Below are positions 7,789 to 33,933 of a stretch of DNA of 41,845 nucleotides, piece by piece. The translations under genes and the position numbers were made by a program. The stretch comes from Chloroflexota bacterium (GTDB lineage Bacteria; Chloroflexota; Ktedonobacteria; Ktedonobacterales; JADMIN01). Numbering within the stretch: the first letter of the stretch is position 1; the number at the start of each line of letters is the position of its first letter. Location of the stretch: assembly GCA_021814145.1 (NCBI GenBank), contig JAKAIY010000013.1, positions 1-41,845 on the forward strand, read 5' to 3'. Below the pieces are notes generated by a model. That model ran no database searches. It saw only the letters and a program-made list of their open reading frames with translations, and was not told the origin of the DNA.

Positions 7789-7861
7789 GGGGCTGTAGCT
7801 CAGTGGATAGAGCAGCGGTTTCCTAAACCGCGTGTCGGAGGTTCGAGTCCTCTCAGCCCCA
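7789..7861 (+). tRNA. tRNA-Arg (anticodon CCT)
   Basis: GGGGCTG...CAGCCCC acceptor stem, TAGCTCAGTGGATAGAGCA D-arm, anticodon loop TTCCTAA on stem GCGGT/ACCGC, GGTTCGAGTCC T-arm. CCA not fully encoded. Confidence 0.95.
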
Positions 7862-7864
7862 CCC

Positions 7865-7894
7865 GCCAGCTGAAAATCCCGATTTTCAGCTGGC
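7865..7894 (+). terminator. Perfect 14-bp inverted repeat just downstream of tRNA-Arg (terminator or processing hairpin)
   Basis: GCCAGCTGAAAATC cc GATTTTCAGCTGGC; no T-run afterwards. Confidence 0.6.
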
Positions 7895-8023
7895 GCCTCC
7901 TCACCGCCGGACAGCGAAGACCTCGAAATGGCGCACAAAGCTCCGGCTGTTCTGACTCACCCGCGCCGGAATCTCGATCCTCACTGGAGACGTTCAGGAT
8001 GGCGCGCCCCCAACTCTCGCGGC

Positions 8024-20424: not shown

Positions 20425-20442
20425 GGGCAACGCTCCTCGCTC

Positions 20443-20482
20443 CCCCTCTCCTCCACCGAGGAGAGGGGCCAGGGGGTGAGGT
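20443..20482. repeat. Dispersed-repeat-like palindrome (CCCCTCTCCTC cacc GAGGAGAGGGG + CCAGGGGGTGAGGT)
   Basis: 11-bp inverted repeat at 20443-20453/20458-20468 followed by ccagggggtgaggt; resembles the recurring 'CCCTCACCCCCTGGCCCCTCTCC' intergenic motif seen in many bacterial genomes. Confidence 0.6.
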
Positions 20483-22044
20483 CACCCCGCTGCGGACCAG
20501 TCCTTCAGCAGGGCCTGGGCGGCGTTGTGGCCGGGCGCGCCCATCACGCCGCCGCCGGGATGGCTGCCGGAGCCGCAGAGGTACAGGCCGGAGACGGGCG
20601 TGCGATAGCGGGCGACCTCGGGCGCGGGGCGCAGCGAGAAGAGCTGGTCGGGCGTGATCTCGCCCTGGAAGATGTTGCCGTTGGGCAGGCCGTAGCGCGC
20701 CTCGATGTCCACCGGGCTGAGCGCCTGGCGGTCAATCACCGCGCCGGCGAAGTTGGGGGCGAAGCGCGTCATCGTCGCGATGATGCGGTCGGCCATCTCA
20801 TCGCGTGTCGCGTCGTTCCACTCGCGGCCCTTCAGGTGGTAGGGCGCGTACTGGCAGAACATCGAGATGGTGTGCGTTCCTGGCGGCGCCACGGTTGGGT
20901 CCGTGCTGGACTGCATGTAGGCCTCGATCCACGGCTCGCGCGAGAGCTCGCCGCGCTGCGCGTCCTCGTAGGCGTTCTGTACCCAGTCGGGCGTCGGGCT
21001 GATCTCGCAGGAGCCGAAGTGCTGCAAGGCTGGCTCCGTGCCGGGGACGCTGGTGAAGTTGGGCAGCTCGCGCAGGGCGATGTTGAGCTTGAAGGTGGCG
21101 CTCTCGGTCCTGAACTGGCCAATGCGGCGCAGGAAGCCGCTATCCAGCCCGGCGCCATCACAGAAGCGCAGGAACGTCGTCTTGGGGTCCACATTCGAGA
21201 GGACCGCGCCCGCGCGCAACTCCTCGCCATTTTCCAGCCGCACGCCTTCGACGCGCCCGTTGTGGATCAGCAGCCGCCCGACGCGCGCGTTGAGGCGTAT
21301 CTCGACGCCGTGGGCCTCAGCGGATGCCGCCATCGCGAAGCTGATGCGTCCCATGCCGCCGCGCACATAGCCCCACATGCCCTTCTCGCCGTTGACCTCG
21401 CCGAACATGTGATGCCACATCACATAGACCGAGCCGGGCGTCTTGGGGCCGATGAACGTTCCGATCACCCCCTGCCCGGCGAAGGCGGCGCGCATGTAGT
21501 CCGACTCGAAGTAGTCGGCCAGCATGTCGTAGAGCGAGCCGAACATCAGGCGGCGGTAGATCTCCTCGTCCTCGCCCTTGAAGCGTCCCGCCAGCTCAGC
21601 CACCGAGGGTGGCTCCTCCAGCAGGATCGGGTTCAGAATCTCGGAAGCGCGGTCGAAGAACTCCAGGAACTTCGGGTACATCTCGGCGTCATGCGGCGAG
21701 AGACGGCGGATTTCCTCGACGGTCTTCTCGGTGCTGGCGCGGAAGAAGAGATGCTCGCCATCGAGGAAGGGGCAGAACATCTGCGGGTCTTTGACGTAGG
21801 CGTCGAAGCCATATTTGTGCAGCTCCAGGTCGCGGATGATCTCGGGCCGCAGCAGGCTGACGACGTAGGCGCAGGGTGACATGGTAAAGCCGGGGAACGG
21901 CTCCTCCAGCGTGCAGGCCCCGCCGACACGGTCGCGCTGCTCCAGCACCAGCACGCGCTTGCCCGCCCGCGCCAGATAGCCTGCGGCGACCAAGCCGTTA
22001 TGCCCCGCGCCGATGATGATCGCGTCCCACTGTTCAGCCGCCAT
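20482..22044 (-). CDS. NAD(P)/FAD-dependent oxidoreductase (PYROXD2/phytoene dehydrogenase-like)
   Basis: MAAEQWDAIIIGAGHNGLVAAGYLARAGKRVLVLEQRDRVGGACTLEEPFPGFTMSPCAYVVSLLRPEIIRDLELHKYG...; C-terminal PVSGLYLCGSGSHPGGGVMGAPGHNAA. Confidence 0.92.
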   Translation of the reverse strand: MAAEQWDAIIIGAGHNGLVAAGYLARAGKRVLVLEQRDRVGGACTLEEPFPGFTMSPCAYVVSLLRPEIIRDLELHKYGFDAYVKDPQMFCPFLDGEHLFFRASTEKTVEEIRRLSPHDAEMYPKFLEFFDRASEILNPILLEEPPSVAELAGRFKGEDEEIYRRLMFGSLYDMLADYFESDYMRAAFAGQGVIGTFIGPKTPGSVYVMWHHMFGEVNGEKGMWGYVRGGMGRISFAMAASAEAHGVEIRLNARVGRLLIHNGRVEGVRLENGEELRAGAVLSNVDPKTTFLRFCDGAGLDSGFLRRIGQFRTESATFKLNIALRELPNFTSVPGTEPALQHFGSCEISPTPDWVQNAYEDAQRGELSREPWIEAYMQSSTDPTVAPPGTHTISMFCQYAPYHLKGREWNDATRDEMADRIIATMTRFAPNFAGAVIDRQALSPVDIEARYGLPNGNIFQGEITPDQLFSLRPAPEVARYRTPVSGLYLCGSGSHPGGGVMGAPGHNAAQALLKDWSAAG

Positions 22045-29335: not shown

Positions 29336-29359
29336 CTCTCTCTGACGGCGGCATATCAC

Positions 29360-29399
29360 GCAAGGCGGGCTATCCGCGTCATGTGGGCGCCCGCCTTGC
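29360..29399. terminator. Bidirectional terminator-like hairpin between convergent genes
   Basis: GCAAGGCGGGC (29360-29370) / GCCCGCCTTGC (29389-29399), perfect 11-bp stem. Confidence 0.6.
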
Positions 29400-29444
29400 C
29401 TGTATGTCGCGCCCGTCTGGCGTCGCTGGCGGGCGCCAGGCCCG

Positions 29445-30455
29445 CTACGGCTCGCGCGCCACGAACAGCCCATAGCGCGCGGCGAAGTCCAGGATCGCGC
29501 GCGTGTCGAGCAGACGCGGGCCGTTCCAGGTGACGCGAACCGTCGTGGGGGCTTCCGCCTCACCCAGATAGAGCGCGCGCTCCCCGTCCAGCGCCAGCAC
29601 GCATGGGAGCGTGGTGATCGCGGCCGCCTCGCCTATCGCCAGCCGCCGCCAGGAGCGCACGGCTATCCGCTCGACATTTCCCGGCGCGATGGGCGTCAGC
29701 ACGCGCACGGAAGCTGGCGGCGCGCCAGGCTCCGCCAGATCGAGCATGAGGGCGCCATCCTCAAAGGGCGAGAGCGGGCTGAGATGCGCGCCAATCGCCG
29801 CCAGCCCGATGCATCCCGGCATGGCTTGCGCGAGCCACAGCCTGGTGAGCGAAGCGATGTCCGTAACCGCTCGCGCGCCAAGAAACGGCGCGCTCGATGC
29901 GGCGATGTCCACCAGCGCCGTCTCGATCATGACTCCCGCCCGCGTCACCTCCAGGCGTTTTGTCGCGCGTGCGGCGGCGCTCGCCGGGACCAGGCCGCGC
30001 GCGAAGAGTCCCGCCGCCAGACCCGCGATGGTTCCTTCGACTGGCTCAGGGATCACATTATTCGTTCCGGTGGAGATGGCGAGCAGCGGAGTATCGCCGC
30101 AGCCCTTGGCCACCGCGCGGTTCGTGCCGTCACCGCCGAGCGTCACGATGCAGGCGCATCCCTCGCCGGCCATCGCCTGCGCGGCGCGCGTCGAGTCGGT
30201 CTCGTCCTGTGCGAGGCCCATCTCTACCAGGCGCACAGCTATCCTGACGCCGGATACGCTCGCGGCTGCGGTGGCGAGGCCGTAGTGATCGGGCATCGCC
30301 ACCGCCTCGGTGACGCCTGCCGCTTGCAGCCCGAACAGGACGCGCCGCAGAATGCGGACCTTCTCCTGGTTGTCCACAATCGAGCTATGCCCGCTCAGCC
30401 GCCGGATGTCGTGCGCGGCGGCCGGGTTGGCGATGAGTCCCACGAGCGGGGGCAT
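29445..30455 (-). CDS. acoX: ATP-NAD kinase-like (AcoX family) protein
   Basis: MPPLVGLIANPAAAHDIRRLSGHSSIVDNQEKVRILRRVLFGLQAAGVTEAVAMPD...CACIVTLGGDGTNRAVAKGCGDTPLLAISTGTNNVIPEPVEGTIAG; GGDGTNR motif; coupled to the E2 gene. Confidence 0.85.
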   Translation of the reverse strand: MPPLVGLIANPAAAHDIRRLSGHSSIVDNQEKVRILRRVLFGLQAAGVTEAVAMPDHYGLATAAASVSGVRIAVRLVEMGLAQDETDSTRAAQAMAGEGCACIVTLGGDGTNRAVAKGCGDTPLLAISTGTNNVIPEPVEGTIAGLAAGLFARGLVPASAAARATKRLEVTRAGVMIETALVDIAASSAPFLGARAVTDIASLTRLWLAQAMPGCIGLAAIGAHLSPLSPFEDGALMLDLAEPGAPPASVRVLTPIAPGNVERIAVRSWRRLAIGEAAAITTLPCVLALDGERALYLGEAEAPTTVRVTWNGPRLLDTRAILDFAARYGLFVAREP

Positions 30456-31606
30456 TATCGGGCCTCGCTAAAGGTGTCCGGCGACTCTACGAGCCGCTTC
30501 ACCGTCTGGAGGAACTCCGCCGCCGGAGCGCCGTCCACGGCGCGGTGATCGAAGGTCAGGCTGAGCGCCATCATGTGGCCAAAGGCGGGTTCGCCATTCA
30601 CTGGGATGATGGCCTCGCGAATACGCCCGATGCCCAGGATGCCCACCTCTGGGGGATTCAGAATCGGCGTGAAGGCGTCAATCTCATACGCTCCCAGCGT
30701 GGTCAGCGAGAATGTGCTCCCCGCCAGCTCACCCGGCGCGCTGGCATTATTCCGCGCGCGCTCGGTCAGTTCGCGCGCTCTCTGGGCCAGCTCGCTGAGG
30801 GGCAGCGCCTCCGCGTTTCGTACGACCGGGACGAGCAGGCCATCGCTGAGCGCGACCGCCAGGCCCAGGTGGATCGCCGCATGCCGGAGTAGCCGCTCGC
30901 CTTCCATCGTCGCGTTCATCGCGGGGTGCTGTTTCAGCGCCTGAACGGTCACCCACGCCAGCAGGTCGGTGTACGTCACTTCGAAGCGCTGGCGGATACG
31001 CTCGCGCGCCGCTACCAGCGCGTCCACGCGCGCGTCTGTTGTCAGGGTGAGCTGGGCTGCGGTATGCAGGCTTCGCAGCATCCGCTCGGCGATCACTTTG
31101 CGGCGGCCCGTCAGTAGCTCGCCTTCAGCGGCGTACGCGGGCGCGGCAGGCGCCCCGGCGGCCGCCGCGCGGCGCACATCGTCCTCGGTGATGCGCTGGC
31201 CGTCCGCAGGCGTCACGCGCGCAAGCTCCACGCCCAGCTCCCGCGCCAGCCGCCGCGCGGCGGGAGAGGCTGGTGTATACGCGCCTGCGCTGCCCCCTGA
31301 TGGCTGGGCCTGCGCCTCCGCTGGCGCCGCGGCGGGGACGCTCGCTGGCTCTGGCGCCGCTTCCCCTTCCAGGGCAAGCACAGCCACCACCATGCCTGGC
31401 TTGACAATATCCCCGCGCTGTAGCCGCACCTCCCGGATGGTCCCTTCCCTGGGCGCGATGATCTCAACCGTCGCCTTCTCTACCATGATCTCGCCCATTG
31501 TCTGGCCCTGGCGCACGTGCGCGCCAGGGTTCATGAACCAGTTGGCGAGGACCGCTTCCTCGATTGCGGTGTCTTCCCATGCCGGAATCGTGATCTCGAT
31601 GCTCAT
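30455..31606 (-). CDS. Dihydrolipoamide acyltransferase (E2), acetoin dehydrogenase-type cluster
   Basis: MSIEITIPAWEDTAIEEAVLANWFMNPGAHVRQGQTMGEIMVEKATVEIIAP...; peripheral binding domain ASPAARRLARELGVELARV; C-terminal catalytic motif LTFDHRAVDGAPAAEFLQTVK. Confidence 0.95.
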   Translation of the reverse strand: MSIEITIPAWEDTAIEEAVLANWFMNPGAHVRQGQTMGEIMVEKATVEIIAPREGTIREVRLQRGDIVKPGMVVAVLALEGEAAPEPASVPAAAPAEAQAQPSGGSAGAYTPASPAARRLARELGVELARVTPADGQRITEDDVRRAAAAGAPAAPAYAAEGELLTGRRKVIAERMLRSLHTAAQLTLTTDARVDALVAARERIRQRFEVTYTDLLAWVTVQALKQHPAMNATMEGERLLRHAAIHLGLAVALSDGLLVPVVRNAEALPLSELAQRARELTERARNNASAPGELAGSTFSLTTLGAYEIDAFTPILNPPEVGILGIGRIREAIIPVNGEPAFGHMMALSLTFDHRAVDGAPAAEFLQTVKRLVESPDTFSEAR

Positions 31607-31671
31607 AAAGACTTCCTGCCCATTCGCGGCGCCTGGTGAAAGAGGGGAGATGATAGGACGCCACGACAAGG

Positions 31672-31715
31672 GCGCGGTCTGGGGCCGCTCAGCGCTGAGC
31701 GGCCCCAGACCGCGC
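31672..31715. promoter_or_regulatory. Perfect 44-bp palindrome (zero spacer) in the E1beta-E2 intercistronic region
   Basis: GCGCGGTCTGGGGCCGCTCAGC | GCTGAGCGGCCCCAGACCGCGC. Confidence 0.9.
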
Positions 31716-31769
31716 TTCTCCAGTGTTTTGGGTATCCGCGCGCTCCGTGATGGGGCGCTCAGGGCGGCT

Positions 31770-32789
31770 CTAGCGACCGACCAGCTCATGAACGGCGGCG
31801 ATAATCTTGTCCGGGTTGGGCAGGACAAACTGCTCCAGCGGGCGGCTGTACGGGATCGGCACGTCTGGCTCGGCGATGCGGCGCGCGGGCGCGTCCAGAT
31901 AATCCACCGCGGTTTCGGCGACCGTGGCGATCACTTCGCCCGTCATGCCGTAACTGCGGTAGTCCTCATCCACGACGAGCAGTCGGTGTGTCTTCTTCAC
32001 TGAGTTGATGATCGCCTCGCGGTCCAGCGGGACGAGCGTGCGCAGGTCCAGCACCTCCGCCGAGATGCCCTGGCTGGCGAGCCGCTCAGCGGCTTCGAGC
32101 GAGCGGTGGACCATCATGCCAATGGTGACGATGGAGACATCCGTTCCCTGGCGCTTGATGTCGGCCACGCCGAACGGGATGGTGTACTCCTCTTCCGGCA
32201 CAGGCCCGGCGGACGCTTTCAGCATGGTCATCCAGCCCAGCCCCATGATCCCCTTGTGCATGAAGTAGATCACGGGGTTGTCATCGCGGATGGCCTCGAT
32301 CATCAGCCCTTTCGCGTCATAAGGCGTGGACGGCACGACGACCTTCAGGCCCGGTGTATGCGCGAAGATGCTGTAGAGCGTCTGCGAGTGCTGGGCGGCG
32401 TCGTCATAGCCCGCGCCATAGGCGGTAATCAGTGTGACGGGGAAGCGCACGCTACCTCCCGACATGTAGGTGTTCTTGGCCAGCTGGTTGTAGATCTGGT
32501 CCATGCACACCCCAAAGAAGTCAACGAACATCAGTTCGACGATTGGACGCATGCCCTCAGCCGCCGCGCCAGTCGCCGCGCCGATGAACGCTGTCTCGGA
32601 GATGGGCGTATCCATCACGCGCTCCGGGCCGAACTGGTCAAGCAGGCCCTGCGTGGCCCCGAAGATGCCGCCGTACTTGCCGATATCCTCGCCCATGATG
32701 AAGACCCGCTCGTCGCGCTTCATCTCCTGCGCGATCGCCTCAGAGATCGCGCGCGCCGTAGTCAATTCCCTGGATGAAACAGTTGCCAT
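31770..32789 (-). CDS. acoB: Acetoin/pyruvate dehydrogenase E1 component, beta subunit
   Basis: MATVSSRELTTARAISEAIAQEMKRDERVFIMGEDIGKYGGIFGATQGLLDQFGPERVMDTPISETAFIGAATGAAAEGMRPIVELMFVDFFGVCMDQIYNQ. Confidence 0.93.
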   Translation of the reverse strand: MATVSSRELTTARAISEAIAQEMKRDERVFIMGEDIGKYGGIFGATQGLLDQFGPERVMDTPISETAFIGAATGAAAEGMRPIVELMFVDFFGVCMDQIYNQLAKNTYMSGGSVRFPVTLITAYGAGYDDAAQHSQTLYSIFAHTPGLKVVVPSTPYDAKGLMIEAIRDDNPVIYFMHKGIMGLGWMTMLKASAGPVPEEEYTIPFGVADIKRQGTDVSIVTIGMMVHRSLEAAERLASQGISAEVLDLRTLVPLDREAIINSVKKTHRLLVVDEDYRSYGMTGEVIATVAETAVDYLDAPARRIAEPDVPIPYSRPLEQFVLPNPDKIIAAVHELVGR

Positions 32790-32821
32790 AGTAGGATCCC
32801 TCTCATTTCCCCGGTGTGCGA

Positions 32822-33817
32822 TCATCTGGTGGTGACAAATACGTCTTCGAGCGCCTCTTCAGGCGCTGGATAGGGGCTCTCGCGCGCGAACGCGACCGCT
32901 TCGTTGACCGCCTTCTGGGCGGCGGCGCGGAACTCGGCGTCCTGCTCCGGGGTGATCCATTTTCGCGCGAGCAGTTGCTCGCGCAGGCGGGTGATCGGGT
33001 CATGGGCCTTGAGGCGCTCCACTTCCTTCGGATCGCGATAGACCTCTGGATCGCCCTGGAAGTGTCCCAGATAGCGGTCGGTGCGGATTTCGAGCAGGGA
33101 GGGGCCATCGCCGCGCCGGGCGCGCGCCACCGCCTCCTGCGCCGCCTCGTAGACAGCGATCGCGTCATTCTCATGCACGGCGACGCCGGGAATGCCATAC
33201 GCCTGGGCGCGGTCGGCGTTGGAAGCGACGGCGGTCGCCGCCTCCTTGGGGACCGAGATGGCGTAGCTGTTGTCTTCGCAGACAAAGATCACTGGCAGCT
33301 TCCAGCGGGCCGCCAGGTTGAGCGACTCGTGGAACGATCCCTGATTGGCGGCTCCTTCACCAAAAAACGTGACCGCGACATCATCGCGACCCTGCTTCTT
33401 GGCGGCGAGCGCGGCGCCGACGGCGGGCGGCATTCCCGCGCCAACTATACCCGAGCAACTGAACTTCACGCTGGGGTCAAAGATGTGCATATGCCCACCC
33501 TTGCCCTTGCTCAGCCCCGTTTCCTTGCCAAAGATTTCCGCCGTCATCTTTTTGAGGTCTACGCCCTTGGCGATGGCGATATGATGCGCGCGGTGCGGGC
33601 CCGTCGCCGTATCAGTTGGACGCAGATGCGCGCACACGCCGACCGCGACTGGCTCCTGCCCGGCGGACAGGTGCATCTCGCCCGGGACGGGGCCTGAGCC
33701 GATATCAAACACGGGGGTCTTGCCCTCGGTATAGACCTGCGCCATCATCTCCTCAAAGGCGCGAATGGTGAGCATCTGCCGGTACATCGCGATAGCTGTC
33801 TGTTGATCAATGGGCAT
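32822..33817 (-). CDS. acoA: Acetoin/pyruvate dehydrogenase E1 component, alpha subunit
   Basis: MPIDQQTAIAMYRQMLTIRAFEEMMAQVYTEGKTPVFDIGSGPVPGEMHLSAGQEPVAVGVCAHLR...FFGEGAANQGSFHESLNLAARWKLPVIFVCEDNSYAISVP. Confidence 0.93.
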   Translation of the reverse strand: MPIDQQTAIAMYRQMLTIRAFEEMMAQVYTEGKTPVFDIGSGPVPGEMHLSAGQEPVAVGVCAHLRPTDTATGPHRAHHIAIAKGVDLKKMTAEIFGKETGLSKGKGGHMHIFDPSVKFSCSGIVGAGMPPAVGAALAAKKQGRDDVAVTFFGEGAANQGSFHESLNLAARWKLPVIFVCEDNSYAISVPKEAATAVASNADRAQAYGIPGVAVHENDAIAVYEAAQEAVARARRGDGPSLLEIRTDRYLGHFQGDPEVYRDPKEVERLKAHDPITRLREQLLARKWITPEQDAEFRAAAQKAVNEAVAFARESPYPAPEEALEDVFVTTR

Positions 33818-33894
33818 GCCGGTCACCTCCCAGATGAATGGGGCTCCGCGAAACGCCTCATGCGCTCCCGGCCAGAACGGCCTGTTTCTTTCCT

Positions 33895-33933
33895 TCGCTT
33901 CCCTGCCCGGGAGCGCGCCTGGCAGGGAAGCGA
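33895..33933 (-). promoter_or_regulatory. 13-bp stem hairpin in the MoaD-like/E1alpha intergenic region
   Basis: TCGCTTCCCTGCC (33895-33907) / GGCAGGGAAGCGA (33921-33933). Confidence 0.75.

Follow-up and report, generated by a model that had tools for sequence, protein, structure and literature searches.

What does a long perfect palindrome do in the gap between neighboring genes of a dehydrogenase operon? We analyzed a window of 41,845 nt (the whole stretch of DNA studied) from a Ktedonobacterales (Chloroflexota) draft genome of 3.93 Mb, in which GCGCGGTCTGGGGCCGCTCAGC is directly followed by GCTGAGCGGCCCCAGACCGCGC. The two 22-nt arms match with 0 mismatches and form a perfect zero-spacer palindrome of 44 nt at positions 31672-31715, as a sequence-only reading of this DNA had described it. 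At 66.8% GC, the number of zero-gap palindromes with arms of at least 22 nt expected in the whole window was 2.5e-8, and with gaps of 0-8 nt allowed the expectation was 2.3e-7. The palindrome is therefore not a product of chance, and the earlier statement that a 22-bp arm lies beyond chance even at high GC was borne out.

The palindrome is located in a minus-strand operon with the gene order E1alpha, E1beta, E2 and an ATP-NAD/AcoX-kinase-family protein. The E1beta stop is at 31770 and the E2 ATG at 31606, both genes being on the minus strand, which confirmed the 163-bp gap between co-directional genes that had been reported. The features of the region were as follows.

33895-33933, minus strand: another long hairpin, with 1 mismatch in its 16-nt arms and a gap of 7, on the 5' side of the operon ahead of E1alpha
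32822-33826, minus strand: E1 alpha subunit, closely packed against E1 beta
31770-32825, minus strand: E1 beta subunit of a 2-oxoacid/acetoin-type dehydrogenase; the start may be near 32789
31607-31769, minus strand: E1beta-E2 intercistronic gap of 163 nt, with the hairpin 54 nt past the E1beta stop and 65 nt ahead of the E2 ATG
31672-31715, minus strand: perfect 44-nt palindrome, an RNA hairpin on the operon transcript (20-bp stem, GCGC loop)
30455-31606, minus strand: E2 dihydrolipoamide acyltransferase
29445-30455, minus strand: ATP-NAD kinase-family (AcoX-like) gene (PF01513), abutting E2
29357-29402, no strand assigned: inverted repeat with 14-nt arms (93%) around an 18-nt spacer, located past the AcoX-like gene in the convergent gap on the 3' side of the operon

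The genes form two packed pairs, E1alpha-E1beta and E2-AcoX-like, whose members overlap or are a few tens of bases apart, and the E1beta-E2 gap that holds the palindrome is the sole wide gap inside the operon. The label "acetoin-type", given to the operon in the sequence-only reading, is plausible because the fourth gene belongs to the ATP-NAD/AcoX kinase family; on the other hand, the E1 proteins gave their best scores to pyruvate dehydrogenase E1 models.

As RNA, the palindrome is predicted to fold at -47.6 kcal/mol, and none of 200 shuffles folded as well as the whole 163-nt gap (z = -5.6). A consensus scan of the gap detected neither a sigma-70-like promoter nor a U-tailed terminator, and a U-tract after the stem was absent on both strands (sense flank CCCUUGUCGUGG). 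The sequences flanking the palindrome are not mirrored and the gene order on both sides is the same as in relatives, so an assembly chimera seems unlikely. A known RNA family was rejected since the hairpin had no match to Rfam families at the gathering threshold; in the whole window this search gave only two tRNAs. Elsewhere in the window, a perfect 15-bp hairpin with a gap of 2 (7864-7895) lies 3 nt past a plus-strand tRNA gene (7789-7861) and is possibly its terminator.

A mobile REP-like unit had been put forward as one alternative, with many copies of the 44-mer in the host genome as its expected sign. We found a single copy: the arm occurred once in the 3.93-Mb genome even with up to 3 mismatches allowed, and genome_contigs contained no exact match to it. 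Nor did BLAST find relatives of the arm in the sampled sequence. We also looked for a target-site duplication in the 30-nt flanks and found none, the longest common word being GGG. Present once in the host and lacking any exact match of its arm in genome_contigs, the palindrome is, by copy number, not a dispersed element, and a mobile or REP-like origin was rejected for this copy on copy number together with the lack of a target-site duplication. Dispersed palindromes of other sequence do occur in the host genome. A perfect 40-nt palindrome beginning with GCCGTGGCGTTGACCGCTAGC has 11 identical copies (L040:11084-11123, L085:8414-8453 and L091:10-49 among them), mostly at contig ends, and probably marks the border of a repeat or insertion element that was not assembled. 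Another dispersed palindromic repeat, built around CTCACCCCCTGCCCCCTCTCCTCCGCGGAGGAGAGGGGG, has ~9 arm matches, with sites at 20442-20483 of the window, L088:20-65 and L074:3069-3096.

The host genome was analyzed for hairpins with at least 14 paired arm bases, no more than one mismatch and a gap of up to 8 nt. In 743 kb of the 3.93 Mb, with genes called by a simple home-made gene caller, 45 such hairpins were identified (~60 per Mb), while one mononucleotide shuffle of the same 743 kb yielded 0. The uniqueness that the earlier description implied was thus overstated. Genes occupy ~78% of the sampled space, yet only 2 of the 45 hairpins were inside genes; 36 were intergenic and 7 lay near contig ends without placement. 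Density was highest in convergent gaps, followed by tandem and then divergent gaps. Within tandem gaps of the host sample, 20 of 22 hairpins were closer to the upstream stop codon, at a median of 34 nt from it versus 228 nt to the next gene, and samples of other Ktedonobacterales showed the same bias for 19 of 20. The mean 50-nt folding energy also dipped in roughly the first 60 nt past stop codons. Hairpins at transcript 3' ends have this placing. The class has weak U-tracts: at least four T in the next 8 nt were present in 3 of 20 long hairpins near the upstream stop in tandem gaps, and on the other side in 0 of 20. Most of the sampled hairpins are unique in sequence, and of these the longest with perfect arms and zero gap is the 44-mer. 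It is otherwise an ordinary, unexceptional member of this genome-wide class.

Conservation of position was checked in part for other members of the class, at a fatty acid desaturase gene. A hairpin of 58 nt lies 83-140 nt past the desaturase stop in G011 (L258); its 28-nt arms have 1 mismatch and a gap of 2, and a T-run follows it. The ortholog in the host genome has a long hairpin too, unrelated in sequence, and the G024 desaturase is followed by an imperfect hairpin with a T-run; no long hairpin was detected past the stop in three other orthologs.

For the dehydrogenase operon, only three of the other genomes of the order that we compared, G030, G019 and G037, have a close ortholog of this E2 (58-63% identity). 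The order of the four genes is common to three families, G030 and G019 representing two families other than that of the host. An 18-bp perfect hairpin with a gap of 2 lies 24 nt past the E1beta stop in G030, where it is unique within its own genome, and a 14-bp hairpin with one mismatch and a gap of 7 lies 17 nt past the stop in G019. These two hairpins and that of the host are mutually unrelated in sequence; structure occurs at the orthologous site without sequence conservation. Covariation analysis was precluded by there being only three orthologous hairpins with no alignable sequence in common. The E1beta-E2 gap of G037 (L005:1112-1500) contained no hairpin of the class and owes its larger size of ~390 nt to copies of a dispersed repeat, beginning with GTAGGGGCGTGATTCATC, that has 105 matches in G037, 33 in G030 and 0 in both the host and G019. 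The copies surround a second inverted-repeat insert, AGTGCTCTGTCAAA...TTTGACAGAGCAGT.

Outside the order, 0 of 63 gaps upstream of E2 had a hairpin with arms of at least 10 nt, most of these gaps being shorter than 50 nt and the upstream gene having been chosen by open-frame length without one-by-one checking. Since ~7-13% of tandem gaps of 60-400 nt in these genomes carry a hairpin of the class (14/208, 7/55 and 2/30), the chance of finding one by luck in both the G030 and G019 gaps is roughly 1%, which is not negligible. With only two supporting orthologs, the apparent positional conservation at the E1beta-E2 gap is suggestive but falls short of proof.

We consider the palindrome most likely to be a signal of an ordinary kind, an RNA 3' end or a partial stop, whose location inside an operon is incidental. 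It probably acts as a U-poor ("I-shaped") terminator-like or pause hairpin, as a 3'-exonuclease barrier, or as both, and uncouples the E1 pair from the E2 pair. After RNA polymerase, transcribing the minus strand, clears the E1beta stop, the very stable 20-bp stem would form 54 nt further on. Because a U-tract is absent, this hairpin would most likely be an inefficient terminator or a pause site; it may in addition, or instead, block 3' exonucleases once processing or Rho-dependent termination has taken place. In this way the E1alpha-E1beta message would gain a protected 3' end of its own, and expression of E2-AcoX would depend on the fraction of transcription that reads through or on a promoter that escaped detection. 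Partial termination, stabilisation and a changed E1:E2 ratio are all what we infer for the site. The position past the stop and the bias of the class to upstream stops point to a 3'-end hairpin, as do the G030 and G019 hairpins set against 0/63 outside the order and a gap that parts two packed gene pairs. Against it are the missing U-tract, the negative scan for terminator-like sites, the G037 gap, and the fact that only two orthologs support it. The earlier interpretation is supported in part: its idea of an RNA hairpin serving as an attenuator, processing or 3'-end-protection element is reasonable and fits the post-stop position, the genome-wide class and the hairpins of other sequence in two families.

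Intercistronic 3'-protective hairpins and REP elements can give differential stability to messages within operons, and REP elements are repeated with one sequence in common. The palindrome resembles such elements in being stable, lying between cistrons and potentially shielding the upstream message; unlike REP elements, it is unique. It shares with canonical intrinsic (rho-independent) terminators a GC-rich stem, a tetraloop and a position at the transcript 3' end, but no U-tract directly follows the stem on either strand. A further parallel is TtsaD, a hairpin lacking a U-tract for which an effect was measured inside a GC-rich operon, alr-groEL1 of M. tuberculosis (PMC5335608). Like such I-shaped terminators, the palindrome is a GC-rich, stable hairpin lacking a U-tract that lies close past a stop codon, within an operon and between sub-operons; unlike TtsaD, it comes from a different phylum, is longer and perfectly symmetric, and has no DNA spacer. 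According to other work, many bacteria do not require U-trails (PMC8355165). Published evidence on whether I-shaped hairpins terminate is conflicting, and the authors of PMC5335608 note conflicting in vitro evidence. Terminator hairpins can also stabilise upstream mRNA, and long stems may attract RNase III (PMC11696848).

The same terminator-like placing, and the split between two packed gene pairs, would also suit a full transcription-unit boundary at which the hairpin terminates E1alpha-E1beta and a promoter in the following 65 nt serves E2-AcoX. We regard this as fairly unlikely, given a gap with scant room for a promoter and no sigma-70-like one found, no U-tract, and a four-gene order kept in three families. 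A bolder form of the preferred 3'-end hairpin seems doubtful to us: unusually long, near-perfect and sequence-free hairpins would be the main 3'-end signal in some Ktedonobacterales, kept perfect by template switching, and in the dehydrogenase operon one would be maintained across families as a pure-structure device setting the E1:E2 ratio. Alternatively, the palindrome may be functionless, having been made or perfected by template switching in a tolerant intergenic gap. Its zero spacer and full arm identity exceed the needs of an RNA hairpin, and template switching that homogenises arms is known in bacteria (PMC7202029). Against a neutral origin stand the strong bias of the class to upstream stops rather than anywhere in gaps, the peak of density between convergent genes, and the hairpins that two other families carry in this gap, and we think it quite improbable. 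Template switching may be the source of the perfect symmetry even if the hairpin is functional.

Processing by RNase III, in which the perfect 20-bp stem would be cut as double-stranded RNA to leave two message parts of unlike stability, has a slimmer chance still. The stem has about the length that RNase III cuts, but the G019 hairpin is shorter (14-15 bp), and most host hairpins are at gene ends, where processing is unneeded. A dispersed REP- or MITE-like mobile palindrome could draw on the other repeated palindromes of the host genome and on the dispersed repeat in the G037 gap; it is already largely refuted by the copy-number, BLAST and flank searches above and is highly improbable. Equally improbable is an operator for a dimeric regulator, which the earlier reading had offered and for which the two-fold symmetry speaks. 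The symmetry is far longer than in an ordinary operator, the site is inside the operon and not at its promoter, and the sequence is not kept in orthologs.

A long perfect palindrome in genomes of this kind is not by itself exceptional, as many gene ends of the host genome bear long U-poor hairpins. The E1beta-E2 palindrome gains added interest from its conserved place inside an operon with changing sequence. If the hairpin acts as we favor, it would be a simple way for the E1 pair to be expressed at a different level from the E2 pair.
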